A stretch of DNA of 64,000 nt, from NCBI RefSeq assembly GCF_026914185.1, contig NC_070570.1:2604001-2668000 (forward strand), given 5' to 3'. Positions 16,401 to 52,800 of the stretch are shown here, one piece after another. How positions within the stretch are numbered: the stretch's first letter is position 1; each line of letters starts with the position of its first letter. Below the pieces are notes generated by a model. That model worked only from the letters and a program-made list of their open reading frames with translations, made no database searches and was not told where the DNA came from. The position numbers and the translations under genes were made by a program. This DNA comes from Puccinia triticina. Its lineage: Eukaryota; Basidiomycota; Pucciniomycetes; Pucciniales; Pucciniaceae.

Positions 16401-19400
16401 CAGGATAAGGTGGTCTTCTGAGAAGAGGAGGATAAGGCCTTTCAGTTGTCAGCTTGAGGTGAACTTCATGGCCTTTAATGGCACCAAGGGGCTGGTTGGT
16501 GTTGGAGAAGGCAAGTTTGTTATTGTAGAGGACTTCAAACAGCTTCTCTTTCTGCTCAATGGTCAGTTTATCACTGAATTTGGCTTCACAGAGTTCCTCC
16601 ACAATAAATTGCTGCAGTTGGGGATGGGACTTCTTTACAGCAGAAATTTTATTGGAAGGACTCATTCTCTCCAGATGATGAGATTTAAAACTGAATTTCT
16701 TCCTCTTGTTCTCATTGCCAATGGTAAAGAATCTCTCTTTACTGTTTGTGATATCAAAACCATACAGAGACATGTAATCATTTCCAAGTATAAGGTAATT
16801 TATTCTTGCATTTTTCATAACTACAAATTCTGCTAGAATTCTTACTGAACCTTTAGTGTGAGGAAAAATCAAAGCCATTTCTATTATGCCCATTGGCTGC
16901 AATTGGTCACTACAGCTGTGGAATTTAGCATGGTTAATTGGCATGAGTTTGTTTTCCCATTCTGGTATTATGGAATCTAGCAATCTGTTGCTGATGATTG
17001 AACAAGAAGCTCCACTATCAAGAAGACATGAGTGTTCTTTGGATTCAATGAGGACAGTAGTGAGATTTGCTTTCCCAGTGAGATGAGCTTTTCCTCTATC
17101 AGGTTTACATTTCATGAGTCTAGCATCCTCTACATGGGAAGAATGGCATGATTTGTCCCAGGTCTGAGGTTGATGAGTCTCAGCTTGGATTTCAGCAATG
17201 GAGAAGTCTTGGTTTATCTCACACTCTACAGCATGTGCTCCAAAATCAAAGTCAACTAGGGGATCATAATTAGCACCATTTCCATTGTCCATAGCAAGGA
17301 TCATGTGGTTGGTTCTATGATTCTCTTCTTCTTCATCTAGCTCTGATCCAGACTTTTGTGGCTCACCTTGATCTTCTCCATCGTCACTTTTGGGATCATC
17401 ATCATCATCCATTCCTACATTGTTGATCCTGTTCTTCTTCTTAGGGCATTCCCTGGAGAAGTGGCCAGTTTGTTTGCAGAAATGACATATAAGTTTGTCC
17501 TTTTCAGGGGCAGAGGCTGGATTTCTTCTTGCAGAGGATTCATTTGGCTTATCAGCTTTCTCAGGCACAGGATTATTTCTCCACTGAGATCTGTTTGGAG
17601 CATTATAATTGTTTGTCACAGGCTTGTTCCTTTTCATGACTCTGTCTATGACTTCTTCAGCAATTATAACCATGTCCTCAAAGCTCATTTCAGTAGCATC
17701 TCTCTTGTATCTGCTTTTAACAGCATGCTCAAGATTTGGAGGGCATTGCTTTAAGATCTTCTCACAAATGAGATACTCACTGAGCTCAGGTTGATAAGCT
17801 TTCAGTCTTTCTCTTTGAGTACCAAACCATTTATGGATTTTTCTCCCATCATAAGCAAAGTGATCACTTTCAAACTCTTGTTGCATTTTCCATTTCCAGT
17901 TCTCAGTACCAAACTTATTTCTGATGGCATTCTTCCACCAGGCCCAAGACCTGTTCCCATACTTGTCTCTGATGCCAAGATACCAATTTCTTGCTGTGTC
18001 AGTCAGCAATATTGTCAATCTACTGATTATCATGTTGTCAAGCATCAAGTAATCTCTAACAAGGATGTCTGTGTTCTTAATCCAAAGCTCATGATTGTAG
18101 GGCAATTCACCTGAGAACTTATCCCATTCACTGTTCTTTGGTATGCTCTTCCACAGCTCTCTCCTCATGTCAAAGTCAATTGATCCATGATCAATGTAAG
18201 GGAATTCGTCATTGGCAGTTGGAATATTTTCATTACTAGCTAACTTGGAGAAATTGGCTCTAGCAGATTGGTGGGATTCAGGTAGAGGAGTATTGTCCAT
18301 GGCAGGTGGAGGTCTATGAGAATCATACTGGGAAGGATTTCTCAGATTGTTCTGATTGTGATTATTCTCACTCTGCACATTGAGCAATGGGTTATTGTAA
18401 TTGAGATGGGGAGGACAATCTCTACTATCATTAACCAAGTTCTCTAACTTGGTATTTGTTTGATGTACCACAGAAGAAATGTCACTGAATCTTCTCTTGG
18501 TTTGCTCAAATCTGTTATGACCATTAGTTTGAAGGTCACCCATTTGGTTTTCTAGAGAAGAAAGTTTGTGATACATTTTATCTTCCATATCATCCAAGTT
18601 CTTACCAAGGGTGTCCATATTGGAGTGGCATTGAGATTCATTCACTAGAATAAGGTCTTGCACTCCTTCCAATTTGTCTTGGACACTTTCCATTTTCTCC
18701 TCAATGAGTTTTCTCAATTGCTCAAACTCATTGGTGCTCCCAGATGGTCTTTCTTTGGCACATTCTCTCATTTGGTTCAGAAATTGATCAAGCATTTGGG
18801 GCATAAATTCTTCTCTGAAGATGTCAATAATTGAAACATTTAAGACTTGTTTGAAATTCTGCACACATGATTCTAACAATGTACCAGGGATAGTTTCAAT
18901 AGTTCCTAAAAGTTCAGATAAGAATTTGGAGAATAAAGCTTGTAATTTTTCTTCCAATAACAAGGGACCATTGTGAGACAATTCAGAGTTAAGATTGTTG
19001 ATAAAAAATTCACGGCTTGAAGGGCTAGAAAGATTGTCAAAGTCTAAACTCAAACCCATTGGGGAAGCAGAACTTATTGAGCTCTTCCTATTCCCCTCCC
19101 ACGCCGGTATCCTCTTGCTGATCCTCGAGAAGCTCTCATGAGGTACGCTCCTATTTGGAGGACTCTTTGAGTGTTGTCCCTCGGACGCCTCCAATTCCTC
19201 CCCGATCCTCTCCAGTTTTGAGAAGGATTGTGGCGCTGCGGATGCGCGTATGGTGCTCCTGCTGCTTGATATTGGGGTGGATGTGGCTGGTAATGTTCGC
19301 CAGGGCTTTGATAGGGAGTGTGCCTCGTGACTTGGCTCCCATCTAGCGGTGTGGAAACTGGGAGTCTCGTGACCTGCTGATGTGGGTGCGGCGGTGGCGG

Positions 19401-20307
19401 CGGCGGCGGAGGAACTAAGGTGCTGCTGTTGTGCGCTTGATTGCGGCTCTGAGTCTGCGCAGGTGGCGGCGGCGGCGGCTGGAACCCTTGATTGTACTGA
19501 GGGGTATGACCCTGGTACTCTGCTCCTTGCGTTCGGTGTCGAAAACTCGGTGGCTCTGGGGTCGGCGTCGCCATCATAGGTTGATGGTGCGGGTGCGGCG
19601 CTATGGCTAGGGACTGGTTGCTCTGCGAAGGTGGAGCGGCTGTATTCTGAGGCTCGTAGTTGGTGCCTCGGTGGTATAAAGTGCGCTTGAGTTCGTTCAG
19701 CTCGATTCGAGGGATCCAGTCCTGACAAAGACGGATAGTCTCGTCTCTCCCGGCTATCTCCTCGATCATGTCTTGCGTTGTGGCCGCTTGCATGAGGAAC
19801 ATTCTCACGGATCTCCAGTTCTGCGCCTCCCGAGCTCGGACGAAGAGATCGAATTGATCGTTGAAAAGGTTCACTAGGCCTGTCAACTCTGGATCTTCGG
19901 GTATAATTTCCATCGGGCCTGAAGAATCCACCGCCTGAGGGTTCTGAATGGGCGGAAGTAGGGCTAAGTCCGGTGGCGCCTCCGGTCGTAAACCCTCTGG
20001 GTTGGTAGGCAGGGAGGTTGGTTGACTGCCGGCTAAATTCATCGGCTCCCGCTCCACTGGTCGCGGTACTGGAGTCGATCTGTTGGAGGCCAGTGCCAGG
20101 GACGTCTCCCTCGGATTGTACAACGCCGGGGGTATTCCTGTGTCCGGTGGCAGCGGTTCCTCTTGTGGGAAACTGAGAAAATCCTCTCCCAGCGGCGGCA
20201 GAGCCGATTCGAGCTCTTCGAAGCCGCTCCTCGGCTGCTGGGCTGAGTTGGTAACGGAGCTGCTGCTCGGCGGAGAGATTTCTGCCATTTCTGAGATGTG
20301 GTGGCAT
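13483..20307 (-). CDS. Gag-Pol polyprotein of a Ty3/gypsy chromovirus
   Basis: A single 2,274-codon frame from the ATG at 20,307; the frame is open for 16 more codons upstream but without an ATG. Parts in order: a low-complexity serine/arginine/alanine-rich N-terminus (1-420), a Gag helical and coiled-coil region, a capsid-like region (about 750-900), a CCHC knuckle [14 protein letters not shown] (about 935), aspartic protease LLDSGASCS (about 1,095), reverse transcriptase with [14 protein letters not shown] and catalytic YIDD (about 1,450), RNase H ([13 protein letters not shown], about 1,600), integrase with an HHCC finger (HECHD...CSSCDRC) and the D,D-35-E core ([18 protein letters not shown]), and a C-terminal chromodomain-like segment ([16 protein letters not shown]). 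Gag and Pol are fused without a frameshift. The chromodomain suggests targeting to chromatin. No key residue appears lost. Confidence 0.96.
19074..20288 (-). CDS. Overlapping 404-codon ORF inside the gag region
   Basis: This frame is shifted relative to Gag-Pol and starts at an ATG 19 nt downstream of the Gag-Pol ATG. Its context (GAAATGG) has A at -3 and G at +4, while the Gag-Pol ATG (AATATGC) lacks the +4 G, so leaky scanning could reach it. Residues about 125-215 look like a folded helical domain ([20 protein letters not shown], then [20 protein letters not shown]). The rest is proline/glutamine/histidine-rich and ends in an arginine/glycine-rich basic tail ([17 protein letters not shown]). 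In contrast, the Gag-Pol frame over the same DNA is low-complexity. The related fragment at 11,376-11,792 keeps the alternative frame open over its proline-rich part. It may be a second Gag-type protein or an overprinted gene. No known family is recognised. Confidence 0.55.
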
Positions 20308-21060
20308 ATTGGTCAGAAAAGTATTCAAAGGGGTGAAGGTAGTTATGGAGAGCAAGAAAGGAGGTGTTTTTAGATACCTGTAGCTTTAGATTTCGCTGAA
20401 AGCCTTCTACTTTTTCTGGTAGATGAAGAGGTCTTCTTTTTGCTTTTAGCGCTTGGCTTCGCGGATGGTTCTGAAGTCCAGTGGGCGAGTTTAACCGGAG
20501 CTTTAACCTTTCGGCGACGAGGTTTAGGGTCTCTAGAAGTGGCTATGGTTGTCCACGTGGAGCTGCTGATCAAGCTCCCTTCCTTGGGTTCGGCGACTCG
20601 GCGATTTTCGCTGGTTTCGGAGTCTGCTCTCTCCTACAGGAGTGGTTCAAAAATTACGAAACCGGTCGGAAAAGATTCCTGACAATCTGAAATATGATTG
20701 TACTAGTCCTTGGCTTACTTCAAGCTGATCTTCTTCCTCGGAATTAGGAGGAATGGACGATAAATCAGACGAAGGCAAGGCTTTTTCGGCTTGGTTTTTG
20801 CGGTTCTTCACTTTCGCAAGCGCAGCGCAGGTGTAAAAAAATTTTAGAGAGGTTAAGGAAGATTTCAATTAGTTGGAAATAAAGTTGAGAAGAATTTTGG
20901 ACGGATTTGAGCGTCAATAAGAGTAAATTTTTTTTTTTTTCAAGTTTTTACGTTATTTTATGAGATTTTTTTGTTTAATTTATTCAGGATGATCAGTCCT
21001 TTGATTTTATGAAGTCTAGACGTATGAAAAAGGGATTAATTTCCCGATGAGGCCCCCAAT
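20308..21060 (-). other. Leader between the 5' LTR and gag
   Basis: About 750 bp of leader. Two short basic reading stretches occur on the minus strand (about 20,647-20,868 and 20,370-20,573, the latter rich in K, R and S), but neither begins with an ATG. They could be remnants of a spliced upstream ORF or the 5' part of a longer Gag; I cannot decide. Confidence 0.4.
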
Positions 21061-27192: not shown

Positions 27193-28254
27193 ATCCTACC
27201 AGTCTTATCCCACTATCTTAAATCCACAGAATTCTAGCCCTGTAGATCTAAGTTTTGGGGTGTTTTTCTCTTACAAAATTGGGCAAAAATTCCCCCCTTA
27301 TCTCAAATGGCACGTTGAATATCCCCAAAGGCCCAAAGGCCCTATGGATGACCCTCCAGCTGTGCTGGAGCAACGAGCAAAAGAGGGCCGGTTGGTAAAC
27401 TATCCAGGGAGGGCCTAACCAAGCAGTCAGGGGGCTCCCAGGGAGGGGGTAGGACAAAACCGGATCCCCTGGGGGCCCTAATGACTGACAGCACTCCTCT
27501 TAAATACCCATCCATCAAACAGCAAAAGCCTCGGCGTTGTTGACACCTGTTGATCTAACCCTTCTCCCCCCCCGTTGCTAACCACATGCCCAACGCCTCC
27601 TACAGCTCGCCACGGTTGTTTCTTACAGCTTACCGTCCCACCATATCTCCACCGGAGTTCTTCGCCTACTCTTGTTTTCCCTCGACGCCATTGCCAGCGC
27701 CCCGCTGCTCGCTCACTCCCCGATCTCACGACCATCCAGTCAGTCCACCATTCACCTTATTTTTCCCCAATACCGGCCGTAAATTTACCCCTCCCAGACC
27801 CCACGCAAAACAACGTCTACGTACCCGGTTCAGTTTACTGAACAGCATCGCTCGCCCTGGCTGACACTCTTCGACTAGGCCAGATCCACACACCTACAGG
27901 TCCATTCAGGGTCCCACAAAGTCCGCGCCTTGACACTACCTCTCCACAAATTCTCCACGTACTCGTTGCTGAACAAATCTCCCGTTGCAGCACTCGCGGT
28001 TAGACTAGGCAGGTCCGACACCACCAGGCACGAGCTCGCCCTGCAACAGCCCAATCTACGCCGCCACGCACCTCCCCAACGGTCACCACATCCACGCTCT
28101 TCACGCAAAAATCCACCATCTCGCAAGTAACCAGTCCACGCCACCACCGTACATACCCCCCCACCACGACCGGACCGGCTACAACCACTTATCGTATGTT
28201 CAGTTATGCACGTCCGTCCACCCACGCTCAACCTCCCTACGCACCCCAATCAAG
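27193..28254. other. Region before the first Helitron-side gene
   Basis: GC-richer, pyrimidine-rich on the plus strand, with only short frames. An A|TC step that could be a Helitron 5' end occurs at 27,193-27,195 (aTCCTACCAG), but other A|TC sites exist and I cannot choose. Confidence 0.3.
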
Positions 28255-29587
28255 ATGTTAAATACTGCGACTTCATCACAATCCACACAATCCACACCCC
28301 TCATCACCACACAACATTACCACACAACTCGTAGTTCCATTGCCTCCCCCCCACCCAATACTTACAAACAGCCCTTGCAAGGTAACATGTCCATTAACCG
28401 AACTCCCAATCACCCTGCCAGCATGACCGCCTTATTCGAGCCTTTAGGCGAAGTGCGTCTCCACTCATTTGCACATTCCAACCCACGCTGACATCAAATC
28501 GCAGTCTGTTCCCGAAGCAGTTTGGGCTAACCAGTACGGGAACGTTGTCACCCCCAGCTTTTTGCAGTGCGCCGGCGCGCTCCACAGCAAGATGGAGGAC
28601 TTCGAGATCACACTCACCACCAACACCGCCCTTACCAACGTTCTCGACTCCTCGTCAATTCACTATTTGACCGGGAAATTCATTCCTCTCAACAACGGCT
28701 CTACTCCAAAACTCATATATGTCCAAGAGATGGCCGCCCCGGTCATGCCAATAGCCGATAATAACCTAAACCTCGCTAACAAAGCCGCGGTCAACTCCCT
28801 CGGCATGGTGACATCCCGCCAGGAGGTTGTAACCGCAAGCGGCGATGGGACTGCCAACCTCGAAGTAATAGTTGCACACAACGATTGGGACCCGCAAGTA
28901 CGCTTTGTCCCCCTTTCGACGCACACTCCCTCATCATTTACCCCTTCCTCAGGAACGCGCACACAAGCGTTTCTCCATCAAGTATATTGTGCCAGGGTCG
29001 AAATTACAGATCAAAACATTCAACTTATTCATTGTTGGTCGTGAGGTCAAAATCACAGGCCGTTTGGTCGATTTCAAAATGGACACCAATATGGCAGTCG
29101 TCGTGGTGAGTTCCAATCTCGTGAAACCCAAATGATTCACGCCATCAACTGAATTGTTTGCGCAGGTCTCGCACGTCGCTGTCACATCTGGCCACCAGCT
29201 CGGCACAGGTGCCCTGCTTCCTGCTTCGTCCGGTTCCACATCGCAGACCGGCAAACCCACTCGCACCCCGTACGCCTTTTATCCACATCTATCGCAACAT
29301 CATCTATCTAACCACCCCTGTACAGGACGAAATTCTCCCCCAAAAAACCTGACACAAAAGCCGTCCCCCACCCAAATTGCTTAACGCACGCTGCAGTCAC
29401 TTCCACTTCCACACTTTCAAAAGGGAAAGGCAAGGCTCAACCCCCCAGTGAGCCCTCTCAAGATGGCGAAACTGCCTCTGAAGAAGAATTCGAAGAAGAA
29501 AGCAAAGAAGAGGCGGCTCCCAAGAAACGTGGTCGCCCACGCAAGGACATCCTGAAAGACGCGGCCAAGCGCATGAAGCGCTCTTGA
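28255..29587 (+). CDS. Beta-rich OB-like protein with acidic tail and AT-hook (family copy 1)
   Basis: Five exons: 28,255-28,452, 28,505-28,897, 28,953-29,105, 29,166-29,269 and 29,326-29,587. All introns are GT-AG, 52-60 bp, and preserve phase; the product is 369 residues. Downstream ATGs at 28,388 and 28,423 are alternative starts. The core has strand-like blocks (YLTGKFIPLNNG, AAVNSLGMVTSRQ, FIVGREVKITGRLVDFK, NMAVVVVSH) that suggest one or two OB-type barrels; this fold call is inference. The C-terminus has an acidic run (SEEEFEEESKEE) and a basic AT-hook (KKRGRPRKD), implying DNA contact in the nucleus. Three other genes in the window share the core and intron positions. It lies 0.7 kb upstream of the Helitron helicase on the same strand. 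Helitrons in some plants carry RPA-like genes, so a ssDNA-binding helper role is an attractive but unproven idea. Confidence 0.7.
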
Positions 29588-30270
29588 GTATTTGTCGTCG
29601 TTTTTCGATACGTTATACTTACCTTTTGCCTATCATGCCACAAACCTCATTCTATGGGGCCGCAAACATTCCATACACTCACCACATGTAACTAGACCCT
29701 GCTCCATGATTGTTCATCCAGACCAACCCACAATCTATTCCCGCGTTTAAATATTACACTACACTCATTCTATTCTGTAGGGGCCCATTTGCCCATTCGA
29801 TATTCATAAATTGTTGAAACTGTTCACTTCTTGACTGTAGCAACATTGTTTTCAACGGAATCCAAATGTATTCCTATTCTCATTGCTATTGGTTTCCGGC
29901 GCACTACGCAGGTTGCTCGCTCAGATCTTTCCTGCTGTGCAGCAATTGATCTTAGCCACGAGCTACTGAAGTGAAAAGCTTCAACAAAACGCCACTTGAC
30001 CCAAGCACAGTTTATTCATCACAAACCAAATTAAAACACAACCGAACTACAATTAAGGGGTTCACAATCAGTTCGACGGATGACACGTTGCCGATCTCTG
30101 CTCGTTCTCACATTACTCGCAACGTTCACCTTTTTAGTCGCATTTTGGGTTCAACACCCACGCAACCCCCCGCATAACACTATTTGTCACTCCATATCTT
30201 CCCAATCCGCCCCTCCTGTATCTCTCCGCTTCTTTTCCAACAACATTTCAACTCACCGCAATTGGCTACA
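29588..30270. other. Intergenic between family copy 1 and the helicase
   Basis: No supported frame. It probably contains the 3' region of the upstream gene and the promoter of the Rep-helicase gene. Confidence 0.3.
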
Positions 30271-33200
30271 ATGCCGGGTCGGCTCATAAACACGCCCGGA
30301 AAAGTGGTGACAAATCTCGCTTCGAATACCGAGCGCCGCATCTGCGATTCCTTTCAATTTAGCATTCCTCACCGACTTGGGCCTTGCACCGTTCAATGTT
30401 CGAAGTGTCAAGCTTTACACTTCCACGAAGAAGCTGCCGTTGCTGACTCCTTGAAGGAGTCAATCAGCTTTTTCACCTGTTGCCAGAAAAATAAAGTTAC
30501 TCTTCCATCATTCAACCCGTCGGCTCCTCAATTCCCGTCCGAAATCAAGGATCTATTCGACGGCACAAGTCCAGGTATGTAAAATTCTAAAGTGCACAAC
30601 TCAACACTGAAACTTTATAACAGATTCCGCAAACTTTGTAGAACTGATACGCATGTACAACAACGCTGTATCATTCATATCACTCGGCGCCAACATCGAC
30701 TCCTCCGTGCAAGGTCCATACGGGGTTTCAGTCTTCCGCATGTCGGGCGGCTTGGTCCATCTCATCTCAAGTATCGAACCTGTTGACAACCACAACCCGG
30801 GTTTTTCACAAATTTTTGTTGTTGGCGACAGGGGAACCAATGAAGCGCAGCTTTGCGTCGAAAAAGCTCAAGGCCGGGCAGGCAATTCCGGCCGCGGTTC
30901 CGCAATGCGACTCTCAACGGTACAAAAGCTAATGGACTTTCTATATCGGCACAACCCGTACGCTATTGTCTACAAAACCGCCCGCCAAGTCTTGCAGCAA
31001 ACGGGGGCTCTCACTTTCAAACTCCAAGGTGTCCCCAGGCCTGGATGCGACCCAAAGCGCTACAATCGACCCACAACGGATGAGGTCGCAGTAATTGTCC
31101 GCGGGGCGGGAGACATTATCAAAGAGCGACAGATCCTGCTACACCGCGCAGATGGCACCTTGCAAGCAATATCTGACACACACTCCGGTTATTTTCCACT
31201 CCGTTATCCTCTCTTTTTTCTGTTTGGCAAGCAGCAGTGGGATAATCTCTATCAGGCAGTGACCTCGCGTGGTGAGTCCATCATTATCATCTTATTTTGC
31301 CAAATACTAACCCCCCACAGTTAAAGGTCGAGTTGTTGGATCATTGGAGTGGTTTGCCTTCCTCCTTTTCGAACGACCCCACCACTTTTCCGCCATACTT
31401 TCTGGGCGCGCACTACTCCAAGAACTTGTTTGTGATATGTATATTTGCGTCGAACGCTCTCGGACCACATTTATTGAGTCAAACCAGAGCAAACTGAAAG
31501 CCAACAAATACAATGCGTTGATGCGAAGCCTTGAAAACGGCGCCGTACTTGTGGGTAGGAGGGTGATACTGCCCTCAACTTTCATTGGCAGTCCACGATG
31601 CATGTCTGAATTATACCACGACGCGATGGCAATAGTTCGAAAGTATGGCCCTCCATCATTGTTTATCACAATGACCGCAAATCCCAATTGGCCCAAAATC
31701 TTACTCATCATTCCAGCTGGAGAATCACCTGCCGACCATCCAACTATTGTATCAAGAGTATTTCACCTCAAGATGAAGGCCCTCATGTTTCAACTGCTAA
31801 AGATGGGCCGTCTCGGCAAGGTTCTCGCCTACGTGTCCGTAATAGAATTCCAGAAGAGGGGTCTTCCTCACCTTCATTTGATGGTAACTCTTGACCCCAA
31901 CGATCGACCTCTCACCCCTGAAGAAGTCGACCGCATCGTTTCAGCCGAAATTCCTGATGAGTTCTTTGAACCTTGCCTTCATCAACTTGTGACGCAATTC
32001 ATGTTACACGGGCCTTGCATTGGACGCTCTTGCTGGACTGGCGAGAATTGCAAATCCGGTTACCCAAAACCTTACACTCCTCGCACCGTAATCATTGATG
32101 GAGCATACCCAGCTTACCTCAGGCGCGACAACGGAGCAACAGTCACGAAACACACCACCACATTCACCAATGGGAATGTTGTTCCTTTCAACAAGTTCTT
32201 GACTTTAATGTTTGAATGCCATATCAATGTTGAGATCCCGGTTAATAGTACCGCTATCAAATACCTTTACAAGTACATTACGAAAGGCCATGATCGATCA
32301 TACATGGCAGCCGACGTAGCGAACGAAGTCCAGGCGTACATTGATGCGCGCTACATCAGCCCTCCTGAAGGTTTGTTTTTTGATCCATTTTTTCCAAGCC
32401 ACTTTTCTGACACGTGATTCTAGCATGTTGGAGATTATTCAAGTTTCCTTTATCCGACCGATCCCCCGCCGTAACACGGCTGGCAATTCACGATGCTGGT
32501 GAACAACTGGTCTACTTCGATTCAAATGAGGGCGCTGAAGGGCAGATAAAGTCGGGAAAAGCTTCTCAGACTAGCTTAATCGGATACTTCAAGCTAAACC
32601 AGAAAAACTCGATCGGCGCGGAAGGCCGGCCGGCGCGATCCCTGCTCTACGAGGAGATCCCTTGCTTTTTTTGGTGGGACAAAGGCAAGAAGGCGTGGCT
32701 TCCCCGCAAAACAAAATCAGAAGCAGTTGGCAGGATGTTCTCGGTTTCCTTTCTCGCAGGCGAGAAGTTCTACTTGCGTGTTCTACTTCTTCATTGTAAA
32801 GGATGCAGATCCCACCAAGAACTACGGACTCTTGACGGGCGTTGTGCCAATACTTACCAGATCGCATGCAATTGGCTCGGCTTGCTTGTAGACGATTATC
32901 TTTATGACCGGACTCTCCACGAAGCTTCCTCAGCTCAAACTGGTTACAAGCTCGCCGAAATGTATGCGATGATGTGCATACACTCGCCGCCATCAGACCC
33001 CAAAAAGTTGTTCGAGAGGCACTTTGAGTCGTTCACGGACGATTCTCCACGGCTTGACATGCAGAACCGTTCAAGTCGCACCTTGAGACCAGAGAAACGA
33101 CGTGTACTCGCCTTATTCCGGTTGGAGGAAATCCTTCAAGAAATGGGAAGCAATTTAGAAACATGCGGGATCACTATCAGCCGCGCCGACAAGCGATCTC

Positions 33201-34729
33201 TCGGACGTCTCGAACATGAACGCCTTGGGAAAGAAGATTTTGCGGATGTCTATGCTCGCCTCCGCGCGAATAAAACACGTTTCAATGCAGCACAACTCGA
33301 TTTCTTCAATAACGTGAAAAAATTGTTGACCAAAAAGCAACCTCGCCTGTTTTACTTGGACGGACCCGGCGGAACGGGCAAAACATTTGTCCTCAATTCA
33401 ATCATAGATTTCGCCGAAACCAAGCGTTTTCCATTCATTGTGACCGCATCGTCTGGTGTTGCAGCCTTGCTGCTCAGGTTTGGGCAAACAGCTCATTCCG
33501 CATTCAAGATCCCCATTGATGCCATGAGGGACGTCGAGTGCCCTGTCGAAACCGATTCTTCATTCGCGCAAAAATTAGTCACCGCGCGACTCATCATCTG
33601 GGACGAAATTGTTACTATCCACAAGAATTGCATTGACGCCGTTGACCGGACACTTCAGCGCCTCACCTCATCGACGCTACCATTCGGAGCCAAGACAGTT
33701 ATTTTCTCGGGTGATTTTCGACAGACACTACCAGTTGTGAAATACAACGAATTTCCACCCTCATACGCGGCAACAATAAAATCTTCATTAGTCTGGGATC
33801 ACGTTTCTGAATTCAAGCTGCACCAGAACATGAGGCTTGCCGCGGCTCTGCGCGGCGCGGCAATGGAAAACAATCAGGTTTTTGCACGGGCTCTTCTCCG
33901 CCTTGGCAAAGGTAGAGATCAGACAACCGACTTTGGCATTGTACCCCTTGATGGGATGAACGTCGAGTCCTTCCCAAACACGCGCGACATGTCAATTCGC
34001 CTCACAGACTTTGTTTACTGCCAACTGAATTCAATATCCTCCCGCAGCACAAGTGATGTAGTGGAGTATTTAAATGAAAGATGTATTCTCGCACCCCTCA
34101 ACCGGGATGTAAAACAACTCAACAAAGATATTATGAATAGTATCCCTGGCGACGCATCCCCGTTGAAGTCAATTGACACCCCGGATCTGGACGGTTGTGA
34201 CAGCCTTCCCGAGGAATGTCTCAATAAAATCTCAATATCCGGATTCCCTGAACACCTTATCCTCGTCAAGATTGGAATGCCCGTTTTAGTCACTCGCAAT
34301 ATGAACATCAACGGTGGGATCTGCAACGGAACACGGATGCTAATTTTAGCATTTTCCCATGTTTATATTCAGGGACAGTTGATGACAGGGCCATTCAAAG
34401 GGAGAATAATTATGCTTCCCCGAGTCAAGTTGCACAATAAAGGATCACCACGCTCCGGACTCAGTTTCTTCAGATACCAGTTCCCAATTACACCTGCGTA
34501 CGCTATGTCAATCAACAAAGCACAAGGCCAGACTTTTGGCCAAGTGGGAGTTTATTTGACCACGGACGTATTCTCCCACGGACAACTCTACGTTGCACTG
34601 TCCCGCGTTTCCAACGTTGAAAATTTGCTCGTTGGAAAGCCCCAAGAAAGGGCCGGTGTTGTCAATGTTGTTCATTGTCAAATGTTCGGATCTCATGTGC
34701 GTATTCGATCACGTGTCCGTAATTTATAA
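30271..34729 (+). CDS. Helitron Rep-helicase (rolling-circle transposase), intact
   Basis: Four exons give 1,435 residues without a stop: 30,271-30,574, 30,624-31,271, 31,321-32,370 and 32,424-34,729. The introns are 49, 49, 49 and... three in number: 49, 49 and 53 bp, all GT-AG and in phase. An N-terminal cysteine cluster (CTVQCSKCQALHF, TCC) resembles the Helitron zinc finger. The HUH endonuclease motif is GLPHLHLMV (about residue 500), with the tyrosine-lysine motif YLYKYITKGHD (about 632), which nicks and joins DNA. The PIF1-like superfamily 1B helicase has Walker A GPGGTGKT (about 981), Walker B LIIWDE, and C-terminal motifs AMSINKAQGQTF and YVALSRVSN. The gene is full length for a fungal Helitron, so this copy may be autonomous. 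It would cut, unwind and transfer one strand in the nucleus. Confidence 0.95.
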
Positions 34730-35507
34730 TTGATCTCACATCTCATTATGCATTGACTATCCACGCAGGCAATTGATCATTCGGATGCAGACGCCCACTA
34801 AACACCATCGAACTGCTTTTGATCCTTTGCGTGAAGCTCCACGTACCCTTCTGTAAACATAATTTGTTGTAATACGTATTGTGAAACAGCAGACAGATGT
34901 TCTATAAAGCTAATTTATGCGTTCTAAGATTGGCGAGTGACACCTGCCAATTCAAGCCTTTTCACCACTTTTCCACGATTTTGACTTGACATTACAAGTC
35001 TTGGTTAAGCGGTCCCAATCACACGATTTCATGTGTTTCTCTACATTTGAATGATTAGGATTCATGCCGCAACTTGTTTCTACTAACAACAACCCTTTTC
35101 TTCATGATTCCTCCTGAACATTGAAGTAATGTATTTGCGACTCGTCCGGGAATTCCGCCTCCTCACTCTGCTCAGTGTTGCCATTGCATGCCACCATTCG
35201 GGGCCGTACGTTTGAAGAATTGTTGCTCATTACTCCGGCTTGATACATAGCACAATTTAAATGTTGCAACACACGTTCGCTTGATAGCCCGCCACATGTC
35301 TCTCCTTACTAAATATCAATATATGAATTGTTGCGGTGTACACAAGTCCTGGCCGCAACTCCGCAACACGCGCATGAAATAATAAACTCTCATGACTAAC
35401 TTAACTCAACAGTGTTGCCATTTAAAGTAAGAAGGGGGGAAACTTCTCTATGTTGTGGTCGACTTTGGTTGTCAACTGCCGGTGTATGCTATTTTGTGTT
35501 ACTTGAG
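34730..35507. other. Intergenic, 3' of the helicase
   Basis: No gene. Short AT-rich tracts and a TAATAAAC-type motif near 35,378 are present; nothing distinctive. Confidence 0.35.
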
Positions 35508-36350
35508 TTAGACAACATCCTCAGCGCCAGTCGAGTTCCCCCCATATATTTCACCCAAAGTCACCTAAGTAGTCAACCATGTCAGTTATTGCTTACAAAA
35601 AGATTGAAAACATAAGCGCACCTTAATAAGTAACTCTCCAGTTACTGGGCTCACGCCGTCCAAGGCACCAACAAACATTGCGTGGCATGATGATTGAAAT
35701 ATATCACGCGAGGTTATGGCTACACGTGACTCGTCTACCAAGTATCGAGCTAAGAACTTGTTGAACGGGGGGGCCTGAAATCCTACATCAGACAAATGGT
35801 GAGGCAAGAAAATTGGATCACAGACCAACCTGCGCTTTGTGTTCCAATGTGACCTCAGTTATCACTCCTTCACACGTGAATCTGGACCGGTAAGCTTTGA
35901 CATCACATATCGTTCCAACGCCGGTGATGTTGACTGGGTCGGCAAATGCAAACGGATCGTCAAGTGGCGTATCCGAGATGACTGCACAATTGTAGTGAAG
36001 AACCGGCAAATTGCCACCCCCTACGACTATTCCCCGCGCACGATACGTCATGCCCGCCATCAGGTGTACGCCGCAGAAGTCGAGAGCGCGTAGATTAACC
36101 GTGTAACAGTGAGCTAACGTTGATGACATGCCAGTAACTCTCCGAGAACATTTCGCAAAATTGAAGTTTTTGATAGTCCGCGACTCCGCGTCGTCTCCTG
36201 ACTGTGCTTGATTGTCAGTACAAGCATCTCAAGGAAATTGGGACTACGACTTACGCTTGATATTGGCAGGAAATTGCCGTCGAATTCCATGCGATCTACG
36301 GCCGGCGGCTTGTTATACACGACAATACATCGATTAGTGGTATCAGACAT
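35508..36350 (-). CDS. OB-like protein, family copy 2 (225 residues)
   Basis: Minus strand, four exons: 36,255-36,350, 35,830-36,201, 35,622-35,774 and 35,508-35,564. All three introns are GT-AG, 53-57 bp, and fall between codons. The first exon ends in MEFDGNFLPISS. The second carries a strand-rich block with MTYRARGIVVGGGN and PVNITGVGTICDV. The third carries CHAMFVGALDGVSPVTGELL, and the last starts VTLGEIYGG. The same blocks and the same three intron positions occur in the copies at 28,255, 39,341 and (partly) 40,859. No broken codon or splice site is seen, so the gene looks intact. Unlike copy 1 it has no AT-hook tail. No named family is recognised; a beta-barrel nucleic-acid-binding protein is my inference. 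Confidence 0.65.
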
Positions 36351-37770
36351 CGCAGCTAGAATCTATTCAACGTCGTAAGGCAAGATCTGTGATTTGATTT
36401 TCTACTTTTGTGGAAATGGAAAGCGTCAAACCTACGAGATAGATACTGATTAGTTGATGAACAAGGACCCTCATATCACAGCGTCAGCGGCCTCCCAAAC
36501 ATGTGAGCATTGACATTCATTAATGCTCCACCTACAATTTCAATCGGGCATGCACATTTGATTATGTCCTGCGGCCAACGCTAAACTCAGGTTACGCGAA
36601 ACTTGTCCGTCGACAACAGCAAAACCCAGAGATCAATCAACAAGGAGGCTTCAAAGGCCAAGACCGTCATCAAATAGGCATACTCGCCTTTGCTTACAAC
36701 TCAAAAAATCCGGAAAACAATAAAATTATGCAGTTATTTCATCTCACATCGTTATTTGTTTTGACATCGCTATTTGTCGCGGGAACGCATGTCATGCTTC
36801 TATGCCTGGTTAGTGGCCGCTTGTCTGTTATTTGTTCGAATCTTGGCTATTCACCCTGACTTCGTGTCAACGATAGTGGCGTGGGATCGCCAAATTTTGG
36901 GACCCGCAGCTGCCACTCAGGGAGAGATCTTAAACACAGAGGGTCACTGATGGCGGAAGACGTTCAGTTGTGACTTTTCACATTTTTTTTGATATTTCAC
37001 GCAGGATCCGCAGTACTCATTCTTTAAGCATTCACATATACCTTTAGAGATTAAGAAGTTCCATGTGCAATCAATCAACTCTACTTTTGGGATTCCAGCT
37101 ATCGACCCGATGCGGGGAGTTCAAGCTGATGGCGCAAGTAATCAGCAAAATTCCAAGTACGAACGGCATGTAGCGATGACATCCAGTATGCGTCGCGGCA
37201 TTCTTGGAGCCAGATGTTGCATGGTTTCAACCGGCCGCTGTGGAAGAGTGAAACCTGAGTAATCTATTTAATAAATGCTACATACATATGCAACAGATGA
37301 TGCATTTCCGGCGCGTCAGGGTATAATGTCATATTCGGCAGAGTTGAATCTCTTGATTCAGGATGGTACTCACCTCGTCTTGGACCAAACAAAGGTAAAT
37401 TTGCGACTCAACAGGGGTGCAAACCATTATGGTTTTGCCTCACTATTAACATGATTCATAATCTACCATTCAACTTCCCCACGGTTATTTTGTTTCTGGT
37501 AATCAATTCCTCGGCATAATCACGCGGCGAGCTCAGGACGCTGATTTTTTTCATCTTAAACCTTAACGTGTCTCGTGATGAAAGCCATTCAAGTTCACGT
37601 TGGGGCCGATTGGGGAATACCCAGTTTTTCAGCTTTTACGTGTGTTATATTAGGTATTGCGCCGGCTAAGTAATGGTTACTCTTGCAAGTCGATTGAGCT
37701 TCGCCGGCAATACACGCTTTGTTGCGTGCCACTAACACTTTTCTTTGAAACTCAAATTTGTGCTCAGGCG
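36351..37770. other. Intergenic between family copy 2 and the GST-like gene
   Basis: Only short frames. One at 37,065-37,262 (plus) might be an exon (NSTFGIPAIDPMRGVQADGA), but I cannot link it to a product. Upstream exons of the GST-like gene may also lie here, because an acceptor-like TGCTCAG directly precedes its first recognised ATG. Confidence 0.3.
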
Positions 37771-38769
37771 ATGTCGGGCCCGCAGATGTCCTTCCCGTTA
37801 AGGCTTATCACAATGAACACCCCAAAAGGCCAAGAAGTTCAGATACTGGTGGAAGAGCTGATGGACTGTTACAAATTTGACATAGCACATCACATTTGCG
37901 ACGTTCGTAAAGGTAGTCAAAAATTGAACGACTTCATTAAATTGAACCCTAATGGTAAGGCTTTCCGGTTCGGCTATATAGTCAGATTATTTGACCACTC
38001 CCCTACACTTGTAGGCAGAATTCCCGTTTTGATTGATAACAATCAAACAGCCATCAATACGCAGTCGGCGCCGTTTTGCGTCATGGAGTCTGGAGCAATT
38101 AGTCAAGTCAGTTTCTTGACCACTTTGTGTTGTGTGATTCTAATAACCAGCTCAGGGCATTTACTCGCAATCCCGTAGTATTTATGTTCCCGTATAGATC
38201 AGAACAACAATTTCAGGTTTGCAGATTGCACTCAATCATCCGAAATGGAACAATGGATTTCGTGGGGCCTTTCCCACTTGGGAATATTGATTGAAGAATG
38301 TATTCATTTTGCGCGTAAGTTATCCTCAATTATTAATTGCAATTGTGGCTGTTCACTGATGTTTGATGTCAGGGCGCGTAACACAGGTTATGCTTCAACA
38401 CGCGACACTTATTCCATAGAATATTACCAAAATCAAATACTTGAAGCATTCGATGAGTTGGAGCAGCATCTCGCCCAGCGTGCCTCAATTGTTGCAAGAA
38501 GTTACATTGCAGGCCTAGGGAGTGGAAAGTACTCTTTAGCAGACATGGCGATTTGGCCGTAAGTACAAGCGTGGATATCTAGAGCCATTGGCTATTTCTG
38601 ATTCCAATTCCTCATATTTGACGTGCGTCTATTCAGTTGGATAAATGTTAGCCACCTCTGCGGGTTTGATGAGGGGGTCCTTAATTGTTTTCCTCACATC
38701 CGCTCATGGATGAAGTGTGTAGGTTCGCGACCAGCAGTGATCGCAGGTTGTTCAAGCAAATACGAGTAA
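37771..38769 (+). CDS. Glutathione S-transferase-like protein (Ure2/GTT type)
   Basis: The thioredoxin-like N-domain is visible: NTPKGQEVQILVEEL, then LNPN spliced to GRIPVLIDNN across a 60-bp intron (37,955-38,014), and CVMESGAI at the end of the domain, as in GSTs. The helical C-domain follows: SSEMEQWISWGLSHLG, EAFDELEQHLAQR and SLADMAIWP, spliced to WINVSHL across 38,559-38,636. The middle exons (38,100-38,400) are unclear. After SGAI the expected LLYL-type helix is replaced, and a GTAAGT...CAG pair near 38,313-38,372 would shift the frame although reading through it stays open. The enzyme would conjugate glutathione in the cytosol if functional. Its place between two family copies, inside the proposed Helitron, suggests a captured and possibly decaying host gene. 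Confidence 0.7.
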
Positions 38770-39340
38770 GTGAGCAGTATAGTGTTAAATTACCGGTTGA
38801 GTGCCTTACCGTCAATTTCTGATTGATCTATCCTCTTTTCAAGGATCACGGGGTAAATGGAACTTTTCCATTGTCAAGCGGGATATCTGCTAACACAATA
38901 ATACATCAACTACCCTGTATATATGTTTTTCAATTAAGTTATGCAAATTATCAACATGGGTTGCCCACGACATGGGACTATAATTTACTCTGACTATTAG
39001 CTGTCAATGTGTCACACCCGCGATTAGCCATGAGTCAAGTGACTGGATTGGAAGATCAACGGCAAATGATGAGGCGCAAAACGGGGTAATAATGATGCTC
39101 ATGCGCAGAAAGAGATGTTGCTTGCATTGGATTAATTTTCCTCACCGTTTTTTAATTGATAACTGCAAGGCTCAGGGACAGAGCTTCCAGCCCGGAGTTT
39201 GCGTGGAAGGAGGAGATAGGTCGAACTAGAATGATTTGCTTGCCAAATCATTATTTCATCATTTTATCACTACTGCTCGCCGCAATCATTCATAACAATA
39301 TCAAATTTTCATCATTGCACTTCAACAACACAGGCTAACC
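38770..39340. other. Intergenic
   Basis: A short frame at 39,156-39,230 (RLRDRASSPEFAWKEEIG) could be a last GST exon joined through the GTAAGT at 38,766. Otherwise nothing is seen. Confidence 0.3.
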
Positions 39341-40169
39341 ATGGCTTCAAACCTTACGGAAGGAAGCGTATCAATTGAGGCAAATGGCGAACCGTACAGT
39401 CCCGACTCATGCATTACTTTCGAGGGGTTGTTCAAACCTATAAGCATTGTAAGGGCATTCACTGCAAGTTGATTAGTTTAATACTAACAATCAACTTTAC
39501 TCAGAAGGGTTATCACGACGAAAGGCGTGGAAGACCTGCCACTCCCTTCAGAAGAGCTTTGTTGAAGGGATCCGGCGAATTCGTCAACGGGACATCCCTT
39601 TTTCCCGTCAGGTTGTCGCCATTGGCGTTTTCAGTCTTTGTCGTCCAACCCGATTCGGTATATTCAATTCGAGGCGAAATTCGGGGTATCGATGACAAGT
39701 TGAACATCAACATGGTGTTCAACACTAACAACGCTAGGGTGGTTATCTGCGAATCCAGCGCTCAATTCACTTCATCTTCTTCGGTTACGGGCGGCGGAAC
39801 TATAGATCAGTCTTCAAAAATACAATGCAACGGTTCGACCAAACGCACGTTGACAAAGGTGGTAGTAAGACATCGTTTGGTGAGCTTTTCACGTGATTCT
39901 ACGACAATCTGGGGTTAAACATTTTGTCCACCGACCCAGCAAACCTTCACTTCTTGTAGATTACTTCATAAGCGATGACGCAACAAAAGTCGATGCTCAA
40001 GTTAAATTCTGCAAAGGTGATTGGTTTTTATGCCGTGGGCTGCTTCAAGGAGTCGACTTGATCTCAGGTCGAATAGTTGTCAAGGCACGTTCCTCATATC
40101 TACTCATCTGATATTGGCCATTGCTAACTTTACCACCAGGTCACCGCGGGGCGAGTTTATCCGAAATGA
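39341..40169 (+). pseudogene. OB-like protein, family copy 3 (splice and frame defects)
   Basis: The exons match the family plan: 39,341-39,448 (ends ITFEGLFKPISI), 39,505-39,879 (with VYSIRGEIRGID and SVTGGGTIDQ), about 39,941-40,084 (WFLCRGLLQGVDLISGRIVV) and 40,140-40,169 (VTAGRVYPK). Introns 1 and 2 start GTAAGG and GTGAGC. Two oddities appear. The third exon reads in phase only if it begins one base after the CAG at 39,937-39,939, so there is a one-base discrepancy. Intron 3 would begin GC rather than GT (40,085), making it a GC-AG intron or a lost donor. The copy is therefore probably decaying, though non-standard splicing cannot be excluded. It is closest in layout to copy 2 on the opposite strand. 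Confidence 0.55.
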
Positions 40170-40287
40170 ACACTATCGTTGAAAAGATTTTTCTGGTGTC
40201 TTGCTTAGCCTCAATTATATGGCACTTATTGAACTTCCATGCAATGAATTGTTTACACCGTCCACTTGACAGTGGTTTTGTTCACAG

Positions 40288-40395
40288 CATGTATAACGCA
40301 ATGTGACTCACCGAGTCAAGGGCTTTTTGTGAAGTTAAGCAGAACCACGCCTATCATAAGATGAGACCAGGGACCTTTGCTGCTCGCTGTTTTTC
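40288..40395 (+). pseudogene. Degenerate 5S rRNA-like fragment
   Basis: The stretch CACCGAGTC ... GTGAAGTTAAGCAGAACCAC and a later GAGACCAGGGACC resemble, in order and spacing, the middle of fungal 5S rRNA, including the box A-like GAAGTTAAGC. The 5' end and the closing stem are not preserved. It may be a 5S pseudogene or a 5S-derived SINE head. Confidence 0.35.
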
Positions 40396-40858
40396 ACGAG
40401 TTTTGTCAAGGCAACATGTTTTGGTCATAGCTGGACAGAGCTGCCTTATGTTCAACTAAACTACGTAATTTTCATTTGTTCTCAGTCAAATGTTGGACGC
40501 TACTGTTTTGATATCGTCACTGGTCGATGCGAGCGCACTAGCTATGAACATTTCAAATTTTTGCCTGGCCTGTGAGGCGCTGGGCTCTATGATAGGGTAG
40601 ACGTGGGGTGACAAAAAAACTAAAGCATCATCATTTTTGGTTCAATCAAAGTATCTCCACACACGCGGGCCAGCCTGGAGCAGGCCAATTGATCAACAAC
40701 TGATTCATTCTAATTGCCGGTTGTATCAAATTATAACTGGTCCAGTTCATGGTTTGTGGAAAGTTGGCGCTTTTATTCCTCCATCATCTGCATCAAGGAG
40801 AGGTGTTTGAGGCCAACAACTTTCTGCACTCCTTAATCCCTTGCAACGCTTTCCGGTC
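40396..40858. other. Intergenic
   Basis: No supported feature; probably the 5' region of family copy 4. Confidence 0.3.
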
Positions 40859-41779
40859 ATGTCAACACAAACATCATTCGATTCACCTTATTTTCTCACA
40901 GATAGACAAGCAGGGTCAGATTATCTTCAATTTGAAGTCGGATTGAAACTTGGCAAGAAAGTTAGTTTTTGGTTTGACACAACCCGAGGATGTTCATGTG
41001 TAGGGAGAGGAATGGCTGACTTTGGTGTTCAGTTTCAGTTCAAAGACAAGAGCGGAAATATTTGCAATCATTACTTGTTGAAGCACGGCAAAACTCATCG
41101 AGGTCCCGGCAATATTCTGGTAAATGGCGACGACGTTCTGGCGGATCCTATCACCATAATGGCACCAAGCTTAGCCGACTTTGGACATGACCTCGCTTCC
41201 GGTGAATGGTACGTACTTAAGGGGGCTGTCGAGAGGAACTTCGGTGGGACCACCGAGTGGAGGTTCAACCCCCTGATGGCCGCAAGAAGTGGGCAGTTGG
41301 AGTTGGCGTTCGCGCCAAGGCCATTGATGATTACCGGATCTGGCGCGTTGAAATTGGTCGAAAGTGTCGTCGATTCGGAGCGGCGAGTTATAGTTGAGCA
41401 TGAGGTGGTGGTTACGCACATTTTGGGGGTATGTGAGGTCAGCTGATACTGGAAAACGGGTACTAACATATCTGTGTAGGATTTGTGCTTGCCTGTTGAT
41501 GTGACAGTGATTGTGAAACCACACGACATGCCTGGCGAGATGAGTGAATCATTTTTTCCCGGGACAAAGGTTGTTTTTTCGGGTGTTCATGTTGGCAGAA
41601 CGGGTGAAGGCGGTAGGATAACGGTTGAGGTTTGTTTGGCTTTTTTGTTGATTGTTGGGGATGACGTTGACGTTTCATTATTCCAGGCCTGGTCGCGGAG
41701 TTGTGACAAGCTTTGTGTTTACGCTGTTGTGGCGGGTGATTTGTTTGACATTTGCTTGCTTTTGTGTTGTTCATTTTGA
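40859..41779 (+). CDS. OB-like protein, family copy 4 (about 270 residues)
   Basis: Exons 40,859-41,428, 41,480-41,629 and 41,687-41,779 with GT-AG introns of 51 and 57 bp, both between codons. Shared blocks are DYLQFEVGLKLGKK, EWYVLKGAVERNFGG, APRPLMITGSGALKLVESV and FFPGTKVVFSGVHVGRTGEG, followed by an intron after ITVE, as in the other copies. The first intron of the family is absent or not recognisable here, so exons 1 and 2 seem fused. The last exon does not match the others (AWSRSCDKLCVYAVVAG), and a GC-rich open stretch in another frame (to about 42,032) may indicate a different 3' end. It is the gene nearest the Helitron 3' terminus. Function is unknown. Confidence 0.6.
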
Positions 41780-42132
41780 TGGCGGAAATATTTCCTTTGG
41801 TGGGCGTGGATACATGGGTTCGCTCGCTCGTGTGAGTCCGGGAGTTCTTTTGTGTTTGGGGTGGGCTGGAGGCCGGCGGAGGTGCTGGCAATGGGGGGGG
41901 GAGGGTTGGCGAGTGGTTGGGGGTGAGGCGACGACGGTTATGTCGCCGGCGGCCGGTGCAAGCAGTGGGACCGTCGGGTTTATGATTTCTAGGGCGGAGG
42001 GGCGAGTAATGCGTGAAGAGTTCCCGCGCTGAGCAAATTCAAACCTCTTTTCGTGCGGGCCTGTGAGGTCACAATCCTGTTGGGATGGAGGGTTTGCGTT
42101 GCGGGTGAGGGGACGGAGGGGGGGGGGCTCCG

Positions 42133-42164
42133 CCCTGCGGCGGCGTAGCCGCTTTGGCCTCTAG
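42133..42164 (+). other. Helitron 3' terminus, plus orientation
   Basis: The palindrome GCGGC-ggcgta-GCCGC is followed by tttggcct and terminal CTAG, then T. This is the canonical Helitron 3' end (hairpin about 10 bases before CTRR, insertion before T). The final 26 or so bases are shared with the two minus-orientation ends just to the right. Confidence 0.85.
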
Positions 42165-42446
42165 TATGAAGATGAAAGCAGAAGATTCAACTTACTCATT
42201 GATTTGATGAATATGAATAAAATGTTTGAAATTGATGATGAAGCTCCAACTAAAATGAAAAAAATGATAGCTGAACTCATGGAAAGTCTACCAAATCCAG
42301 AAGAAAAGAGTATTTTGCTGGAATTGGTACAGTATCTTGATCTTCTTCATGCAAAGACCAATGGTTTTCAATATATACCTCAAGATTTACTCTCAAACCC
42401 ATTGACAAATGATCAACACAGATTGCTTCAGGTTTTTGCAGCCTGA
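42165..42446 (+). CDS. Open exon directly abutting the Helitron end
   Basis: From the first base after CTAG the frame is open for 93 codons to TGA at 42,444-42,446. The sequence is acidic and helical (KKMIAELMESLPNPEEKSIL, LELVQYLDLLHAKTNGFQY) and AT-rich. A polyadenylation-like AATAAA lies downstream at about 42,509. There is no upstream start other than internal ATGs (42,204). It looks like the last exon of a gene broken by the Helitron. The left half may be the lysine-rich gene at 26,346-27,192, which has the same composition and strand, but this is not shown. Confidence 0.4.
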   Translation, partial: YEDESRRFNLLIDLMNMNKMFEIDDEAPTKMKKMIAELMESLPNPEEKSILLELVQYLDLLHAKTNGFQYIPQDLLSNPLTNDQHRLLQVFAA

Positions 42447-42771: not shown

Positions 42772-42806
42772 CTAGCGGCCAAGGCGGCTTCGCCGCTGCA
42801 AACACA
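42772..42806 (-). other. Helitron 3' terminus, minus orientation (A)
   Basis: Reverse complemented, the stretch reads GCGGCGAAGCCGC, then CTTGGCCG and CTAG, followed by T. The element would extend to the right, but its 5' end was not found. Confidence 0.7.
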
Positions 42807-42918: not shown

Positions 42919-42950
42919 CTAGATGCCAAAGCGGCTACGCCGCTGCAGGG
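42919..42950 (-). other. Helitron 3' terminus, minus orientation (B)
   Basis: Reverse complemented it reads GCGGCGTAGCCGC, then TTTGGCAT and CTAG, followed by T. It is nearly identical to the plus-orientation end at 42,133-42,164. Any element extends to the right; end A lies 147 bp to the left. Confidence 0.75.
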
Positions 42951-49852: not shown

Positions 49853-52800
49853 ATGCCAAGTGAAGCCGGCGCAGGACAACAGCAGATACCGTCATTCACA
49901 ATAACCAATACGACGGGGATGGCAGTTTCTTCAAACAATGATGGCTTCCAGCAGGCAATGCTCAAAACTGCTCTCGAGACCACGCCACAACTATCGGAGG
50001 AAAACTACTCAATCTGGAAAGACAAGATGACCGCCCTGCTAGATCTACGGGGAGTCCTTGCGGCACTTGATTCACAACCTCCGAATGCCATAGCTCTAGC
50101 GGACGATGTCAACGCCGAGCTCAAATTACTCTTCATCTCAAAGATGGACAGTGTAACGCATAACAATATCGTTACGGCAGACAACAGGGGTTCTGCAAAG
50201 GACCTGTGGAAAGCTATCAAAGATTGATTTGCCTCAGACGAGTCTGCCAATCGAGCGAGGGTGTTCAACGAATTCCTATACGTCAAATTCAAAGAAGACG
50301 CACTGGAAGCCTTCGTGACAGACATCAAGGTAGCAATTAAGAAACTCGTTGATGTGGGGATCGATCTCCCTCAGGATATACTCGCGTACCTTATCCTTTT
50401 CAAGTTACCAGACACCTTGCAACTTCTCAAGCGGCAAATCATGCATCCCGACAAAACTCTAACGGTCCCATTTGTATGCAATCATCTCACCCAGTTCAAC
50501 AACGAAAACCGAGCCAAAGTCAAAGAATCCTCTGTCTCTACTCAAGCTGCTCTAGTATCCACTAGAAATCAAAAGCCAAATCAAAAAGGAGGACAAGGAA
50601 ACTCTGGATCAAACGGAGGAAAGCGGTGTACAACGGGATACCATAATCCGAAGCAAGATTCTAATCATTCATCGGACTCTTGTTGGCACCTGCACCCTGG
50701 GAAGGCACCCGAATGGTGGCAAGAAGCTCAGGCCAAGTGGCAAGCAAGCAAAAGTAGCAACAACAACGTCAACTACTACTTGTCCTTGGTGACACTGTGG
50801 ACTGAAATAAGCAATCCTAGATTCAAAATTGTCCTCGATAGTGGCGCATCGGCGCACATCTTCAACAACACCAAGTTCTTCGACAGGCTCGAACTAGGTG
50901 ATTGGGACGTGATCAGAACCGGCAAGGAAGGCGCGACCCTACCGATCAAAGGTGTGGGCCGAGTTACTCTACAGTGGGGACGGTCTACTATCTCCATAGA
51001 TGACTGTCTATATGTTCCCGACATCGTCATTAATCTCATCAGCGCGGGAGATCTACTGGAAAAAGGGTGCGAATTAACCGCCAAGAAAGACAGTTTCTAC
51101 GTCTCAAAGGACGGTATCTGCCGATTCGGAGGAAAGGTGGAAAACAACCTCTTCTTAGTGGATAATCCAAGTGCAGTCGGAGGTACAGTCAAATACTCCG
51201 TCAATTTTTCTCAGATGGCAACGGACTCACTCCGATCAATCCATGAAAAGTTCGGCCACGCTTCCCTACAACGCTTGGAGCAGTTCATTCCTTCCTCAGT
51301 ATCCAAGGCCAAAAGAGAAGACTTCGAATGCAAGGCCTGTACTCTCTCGAAAATTACCAAGCAGTCATTCAAAGGAGAATCGGAGCCAGCTTCAAAGGTA
51401 TTTGAACGAATACACCTCGATATTATCGGTCCTATCACCCCGGAGTCGAAGATAAAGTCAAAATACATTCTCACTCTTGTTGATAATCATTCCGGTTATC
51501 TCGCTGGATTCCCTCTCGGAAAGAAGGATGACACAACGGATGTCTTAATCAATCTGCTTGAATCCGAAAACAAGCGCCGAGGATACTTCCCCAGTTTAAT
51601 CTGCTCCAATGGAGGAGGGGAATTCACGGGGAATAGGTTAGTTAGCTTCCTCGAAAAGAACCACATTCAGAGGCTAATCTCCAAACTGTATCATCCCGAA
51701 CACAACGGTAGAGTGGAGCGTGCTAATTGAACCATTGTCGAATCGATGCAAGCTACTTTTCGCTCCTCTGGTATCTCAAAAAATTTCTGGCATGAAGTCG
51801 TCAAGTCGTGCTGCCTCATGCTGAATCAAATCCCTCGGAACGGAAAAGCTCAGTCTCCCTGGGAAATTGTTCACGGAAAATCCCTACCTCCCAACTTCAT
51901 CAAGCCCCTCGGAACCTCGACAGTGGTCTTGAACACGAACAGAGTGAAGGGGAGGAAATTTGAAGTCAAAGGGCAAGAGGGAGTACTCGTAGGTTTCAAT
52001 GTCCTGCTCCACTCCTATAGAATAATCACGCAAAGCGGAGGAATCGTTGATTCCAAACATGTTCGCTTTCTCAAAATGCCTCAGATCAATCAATCTGCGC
52101 CCTCCGAATGGGAAGAATTCTATCCCAATCAACTAACTGAGTTACCAGATGCGGATCAGTTGCGACAAACATCAAATCAGGAAATTCCTGTCGAGAACTC
52201 AGAGTCGATGAGTCAGGAAGAGATCGAACCTCGTCAAGACAATGACAACAATGACTCATCAGACTCAGAATCTGACAACGATGTCACTCAAATGCTGAAA
52301 CCAAAAAATCTCGAGCAACCAATTGAACCATCAACCAGAACACTTTGAGACAGGTCAACTATCAAACCTCCAGAGCGATTTGGTTTTCATCACTATTACG
52401 AACCGAACTCGTTTGAATCTGCTATCCGATGCTCAGACGAAAAATTCTGGAGAAATGCCATTGAAAAAGAAGTCTCATCAATTGAAAATCACAACGTTTG
52501 GTACAATCACTACGACGAACCTCCAAATCCACTAGACACCACATGGGTCTTTAAGATCAAAGATAATTGCCACGGCGACCCCCTGAAACACAAAGCGCGA
52601 CTGTGTGTGCAAGGGTTTGATCAGATCAATGGCGTTGACCATGGCGAGACCTTCGCCCCAACCGGAAAAGTCTCAACTCTCAGAATGATTCTTCTGTACG
52701 CATTACATCAAAATCTACCGATAACTCAATTCGACGTTCAGGGAGCTTTCTTGCATGCTCCACTCACCAAAGACGTCTCCATCAAAACGCCAAAAGGAGT

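Follow-up and report, generated by a model that had tools for sequence, protein, structure and literature searches.

A Puccinia triticina Helitron that probably encodes tandem-OB proteins, one of them a likely single-strand DNA-binding helper

How Helitrons protect their single-stranded intermediate is, to our knowledge, poorly understood. A 64,000-nt stretch of the Puccinia triticina genome (contig NC_070570.1, forward-strand positions 2,604,001–2,668,000; hereafter the window, numbered from its first base) raises the question of whether a Helitron may carry a protein for this task. A first-pass annotation had described a Helitron here with four paralogues of an unrecognised gene family (A to D), and had proposed that the family binds the displaced strand. 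We find that the element is probably an autonomous-type Helitron of P. triticina that also encodes a family of tandem oligonucleotide/oligosaccharide-binding (OB) proteins, and that its gene nearest the 5′ end, A, most probably supplies a helper that binds single-stranded DNA. The features on which this rests are as follows.

27208–42164, plus strand: Helitron, 14,957 bp, between A and T; delimited by comparison with another full-length copy, on C7, whose flanks differ
28255–29587, plus strand: gene A, five exons, 369 aa; predicted tandem-OB protein resembling single-strand-binding proteins (SSBs), with an acidic stretch and an AT-hook-like tail
30271–34729, plus strand: Rep-helicase, four exons, 1,435 aa, no internal stop

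The Rep-helicase is intact, as annotated. Its stop-free four-exon model matches the Pfam families Helitron_like_N (3.4e-53), PIF1 (1.2e-55) and Pif1_2B (1.6e-12), placing Rep (HUH) and a PIF1-type helicase in a single 1,435-aa protein, as in Helitrons. HLH and YLYKY stretches, which we take to be Rep-type motifs, are visible in the sequence itself.

A 401-base piece of the helicase had 23 matches in the genome and, besides itself, two at 98–99% identity. The full-length copy on C7 aligns with window positions 27,206–35,824 and 35,325–42,165 (two overlapping fetched pieces) and no further, and its flanks are unlike those of the window. Both copies read TCCCACTATC...GGCCTCTAG, preceded by A and followed by T; in both, the first element base corresponds to 27,208 (A, then TCCCACTATCTTAAATCC) and the last to 42,164 (GGCCTCTAG, then T). 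The ends are canonical for a Helitron (5′ TC and 3′ CTRR, the same bases in two full-length copies with different flanks), and the bordering A and T of both copies are those of an A–T insertion without target duplication. An empty insertion site was sought in this haplotype and none was seen, so the insertion stands without empty-site confirmation. The C7 element is 14,944 bp long and differs by 184 substitutions over 14,940 aligned bases. Aligning other copies to find the 5′ TC end, a check suggested in the annotation, thus moves the element start from 27,194 to 27,208. This is upstream of 28,255, where gene A begins, and therefore all four paralogues and a glutathione S-transferase (GST)-like gene lie inside the element.

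On C13, a close copy spans window positions 31,647 to at least 45,295 and has no gene A; because the 3′ flank is copied too, it is a segmental duplication. Located on the same chromosome at C13:3970600–3990099 (L011, L012), this duplication comprises the Helitron 3′ part and at least 3 kb of right flank at ~99% identity. Elsewhere in the genome, the left flank has one other match, a partial one (71%), and the right flank is repeated in full only next to the C13 duplicate. Helitrons account for 2.6% (3.2 Mb) of P. triticina haplotype A in the accessible part of a rust transposable-element survey (PMC12210899).

Does gene A travel with the helicase? A query with A itself gave 144 matches (111 of 400 candidates scored) and one with a divergent A gave 130 (150 of 167 scored); together they merge to 129 A loci, and a search with the Rep exon listed at least 116 helicase loci. 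An A lies no more than 6 kb from 82 of the 116 helicases, in all 82 cases upstream and on the same strand. Within 12 kb the number is 88, with 87 upstream on the same strand, whereas random shifts of the A positions (1,000 runs) gave an average of 0.66 such arrangements and a maximum of 4. The remaining 28 helicases have no A within 12 kb. This genome-wide co-location bears out the proposal that the family is element-encoded and moves with the helicase; since 88 of the 129 A loci have a listed helicase no more than 12 kb away, the family does not lie mainly away from Helitrons. A listed helicase is missing within 12 kb at 41 of the 129 A loci and within 30 kb at 33; L058 and L059, both in the latter group, keep the Helitron 5′ terminus beside A. 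Among 27 distinct A loci read, this terminus was unrecognised beside A in 18.

With the first A list alone, A was present at 32 of 36 helicases of 65–80% identity and at none of 19 under 55%, which raised the possibility of a class of divergent helicases without A. The flank of one of these 19, read directly, has A in the expected place, and both lists together put an A within 12 kb of 8 of them (7 upstream, 1 on the wrong side). The supposed class is weakened by this, not removed: 11 of the 19 have no A within 12 kb even with the profile and divergent query. Part of the gap is search sensitivity, because the added query raised 0/19 to 8/19, and part may be real absence. The identities of A and helicase to this element covary (Spearman 0.61 for 72 pairs; 0.47 for the 65 pairs with helicase identity below 80%).

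What kind of protein is A? None of A, B, C and D has a Pfam match above the curated cut-off. For A and its relatives (45 in these searches), Pfam gave no RPA family at E values up to 1, neither Pfam nor PHROGs gave an SSB family, and a PDB sequence search with A at E up to 10 returned neither RPA nor SSB; an RPA or SSB identity by sequence was dropped. The predicted structure of A, by contrast with these sequence searches, is confidently that of an OB protein whose nearest folds are single-strand-binding proteins. It has two OB barrels in one chain, the SSB arrangement, and its best matches are Deinococcus-Thermus SSBs (1se8, 3udg, 2fxq, 2ihe and 2cwa; 182–189 residues, 11–14% identity). The OB idea of the annotation thus holds for A as a confident prediction, with a tandem OB that resembles SSB and is not recognisable as RPA. 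A rival reading is that the OB proteins bind duplex DNA, RNA or protein in place of displaced strands, perhaps repressing the element or suppressing its silencing, with the AT-hook-like tail as the main DNA contact. We consider this unlikely: the best full-length matches are tandem-OB single-strand DNA-binding proteins covering both domains, and A is strictly paired with a rolling-circle helicase.

A is under purifying selection between families. In exon 2, the ratio of nonsynonymous to synonymous rates (dN/dS) is 0.12–0.31 in all five pairs with dS 0.05–1.2; these come from 27 loci whose other pairs lay beyond those dS limits or offered too few sites. Between the window and C7 copies, dN and dS are roughly equal for the helicase, A and C; gene B has eight nonsynonymous and no synonymous changes, and gene D has dN below dS on nine changes. 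The C7 copy carries two internal stops and indels in the helicase frame and one internal stop in D. Selection between lineages with decay within copies is the usual pattern of a working transposon gene.

The other family members lie downstream of the helicase.

35540–36350, minus strand: gene B, paralogue of A on the opposite strand; end of last exon not settled
39341–40168, plus strand: gene C, paralogue confined to this element and its two close copies
40859–41779, plus strand: gene D, paralogue of A

That these are four paralogues is supported by hhalign, at moderate E values that each stem from a single pair comparison (A–C 6.9e-6, A–B 2.1e-4, A–D 6.1e-4, D–B 2.5e-3), and by intron positions that match in the C-terminal part of all four gene models made here; the model of C requires a GC donor for its terminal intron. 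The A profile also picks up C in the window at 2e-4. Gene B has 17 merged loci, 14 of them within 12 kb of a helicase, and gene D has 37, with 23 within that distance. At C7:5045129, C8:3312976 and C13:2899953, A, helicase, B and D follow one another on one strand, with B 3.9–4.9 kb and D 5.6–6.5 kb past the Rep exon; in the window, unlike at these loci, B is opposite to the helicase. Two further loci, C14:1393866 and C17:224014, have B and D in place, with the nearest A 24–29 kb off. Three protein relatives of B were found, all from P. triticina and including PtA15_11A653, and none of D among 825 candidates. B, C and D may be diverged copies that serve as partner subunits of A. It is possible, if doubtful, that A together with diverged B and D (and C in one subfamily) forms a multi-subunit complex that would replace host RPA on the displaced strand.

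Several points weigh against a family of strand-binding helpers. An OB fold of B, C and D is suggested by their weak sequence homology to A, and a structure prediction for a B relative from three sequences was uninformative (predicted local distance difference test score 34). No named relative of A came from outside Puccinia in a search that depends on shared five-residue words and would overlook remote homologues. One C14 element has both termini and a truncated helicase without A–D or the GST-like gene; the helper genes are therefore not required in cis by every copy.

This last element also bears on the GST-like gene, annotated as captured cargo.

37771–38769, plus strand: GST-like gene, of YghU/YfcG/Ure2p type by its nearest solved relatives; splicing of third exon unclear

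The gene model matches Pfam GST_N and GST_C, in agreement with its annotation as a GST; no clean splice was obtained for its third exon. Among solved structures, it is closest to YghU, YfcG and further GSTs, including Ure2p types. Of 38 GST loci, 10 have a helicase no more than 12 kb away and 15 have one no more than 25 kb away. At 8 of the 38, three of which are this element and its two close copies, the GST is followed on the same strand by D, no more than 5 kb on. Because the GST recurs alongside D in related elements, it has been cargo for some time: the cargo part of the earlier claim stands, and a fresh capture does not. Three equal-scoring GST loci (C7:5136327, C1:7378892 and C2:3372037) have no listed helicase nearby and are perhaps another repeat with the same GST family.

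Helitrons capture genes, and the paralogues and GST might all be passengers without a role in transposition, amplified by the mobility of the element. That account suits the GST, with 23 of its 38 loci more than 25 kb from any listed helicase or A, and fits the C14 element. For the family we regard it as highly improbable, given that A adjoins helicases down to 50–54% identity in a fixed place (7 of 19 such loci: upstream within 12 kb), is under purifying selection, and has 63 named relatives that are all Puccinia proteins without known host function, with two more unnamed. Among viral contigs, 20 pattern matches yielded no confirmed relative.

The termini of the element are as follows.

27208–27232, plus strand: 5′ terminus TCCCACTATCTTAAATCCACAGAAT, common to the C7 and C14 copies and present next to A at 9 of the 27 distinct A loci that were read (window and C7 included)
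42140–42164, plus strand: 3′ terminus, palindrome GCGGC-GTA-GCCGC, then 12 nt to the end at CTAG

The canonical 3′ terminus had been placed 7.4 kb past the helicase on the same strand, and it indeed ends at 42,164, 7,435 bp after the helicase stop. Its 13-nt palindrome stops 12 nt before the end and folds no better than shuffled sequences (z −0.78 and −0.83). The terminal core pattern has 683 exact matches genome-wide, against 0 for a reversed control. Set against the Rep-helicase loci, of which there are at least 116, these 683 copies make it probable that many non-autonomous derivatives have the ends of this family. Just past the element, two further Helitron-type 3′ termini lie in opposite orientation (42772–42796 and 42919–42943, minus strand), perhaps remnants of short non-autonomous copies.

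Other elements occupy the flanking parts of the window. An open frame of 2,290 residues (13483–20355, minus strand) with gag-type zinc knuckle, reverse transcriptase, RNase H and integrase domains is apparently a long terminal repeat retrotransposon polyprotein. On the plus strand, 50261–52348 and 59870–62935 hold fragments of retrotransposon polyproteins, some copia-type (gag, integrase), others from a different retrotransposon (aspartyl protease, reverse transcriptase).

How might A act? Following the rolling-circle steps generally known for Helitrons, Rep would nick at the A/TC end and the PIF1 helicase would peel one strand away. We infer that A would then coat the displaced strand, or a single-stranded circle, keeping the strand alive until it is pasted in. 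The acidic stretch and basic AT-hook-like tail could tether A to the helicase or to duplex DNA.

A Helitron with a single-strand-binding accessory gene is already known (PMC4683698). In the accessible part of that work, the accessory genes described so far are RPA-like: plant Helitrons carry PHRPA (Mothra family), RPA homologues occur in zebrafish and sea anemone Helitrons and Drosophila Helentrons, and such a gene was recruited independently at least three times by its count. The plant elements resemble ours in having an OB-type single-strand-binding gene beside the Rep-helicase, and some related elements keep the accessory gene without the Rep-helicase. They differ in that PHRPA is recognisably RPA by sequence, whereas the nearest folds of gene A are tandem-OB SSBs, and in that the rust element has several diverged paralogues and a fungal host. 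The animal genes are likewise independent recruitments and are described there as RPA homologues. Like the predicted A, the Deinococcus-Thermus SSBs carry two OB barrels per chain. A is set apart from them by its AT-hook-like tail, its introns and its eukaryotic, transposon-borne setting, and its match to them is one of predicted structure, at 11–14% identity. Fungal Helitrons with additional, sometimes Helitron-restricted open reading frames include Pleurotus HELPO1 with cap genes (PMC4289320), Fusarium FoHeli with an extra frame (PMC5148889) and P. graminis Helitron1 with TET/JBP (PMC12730594); in the accessible text none of these extra genes is described as single-strand-binding, which sets them apart from A. 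In open-licence literature, with subscription papers and Repbase outside the scope, we found no report of a single-strand-binding gene in a fungal Helitron.

New here is the predicted tandem-OB, SSB-like, multi-paralogue set in a rust fungus. Should it act as a multi-subunit set, rust Helitrons would have recruited an SSB-type protein independently of the RPA-type recruitments in plants and animals. The fold prediction offers an identity for a large family of Puccinia proteins currently annotated as hypothetical or uncharacterised, and it suggests that the element brings its own strand-protecting helper when it moves. A separate recruitment of an SSB-type double-OB protein, kept by purifying selection and beside 82 of 116 helicase loci in a single fungal genome, would argue that many Helitrons need such a helper.
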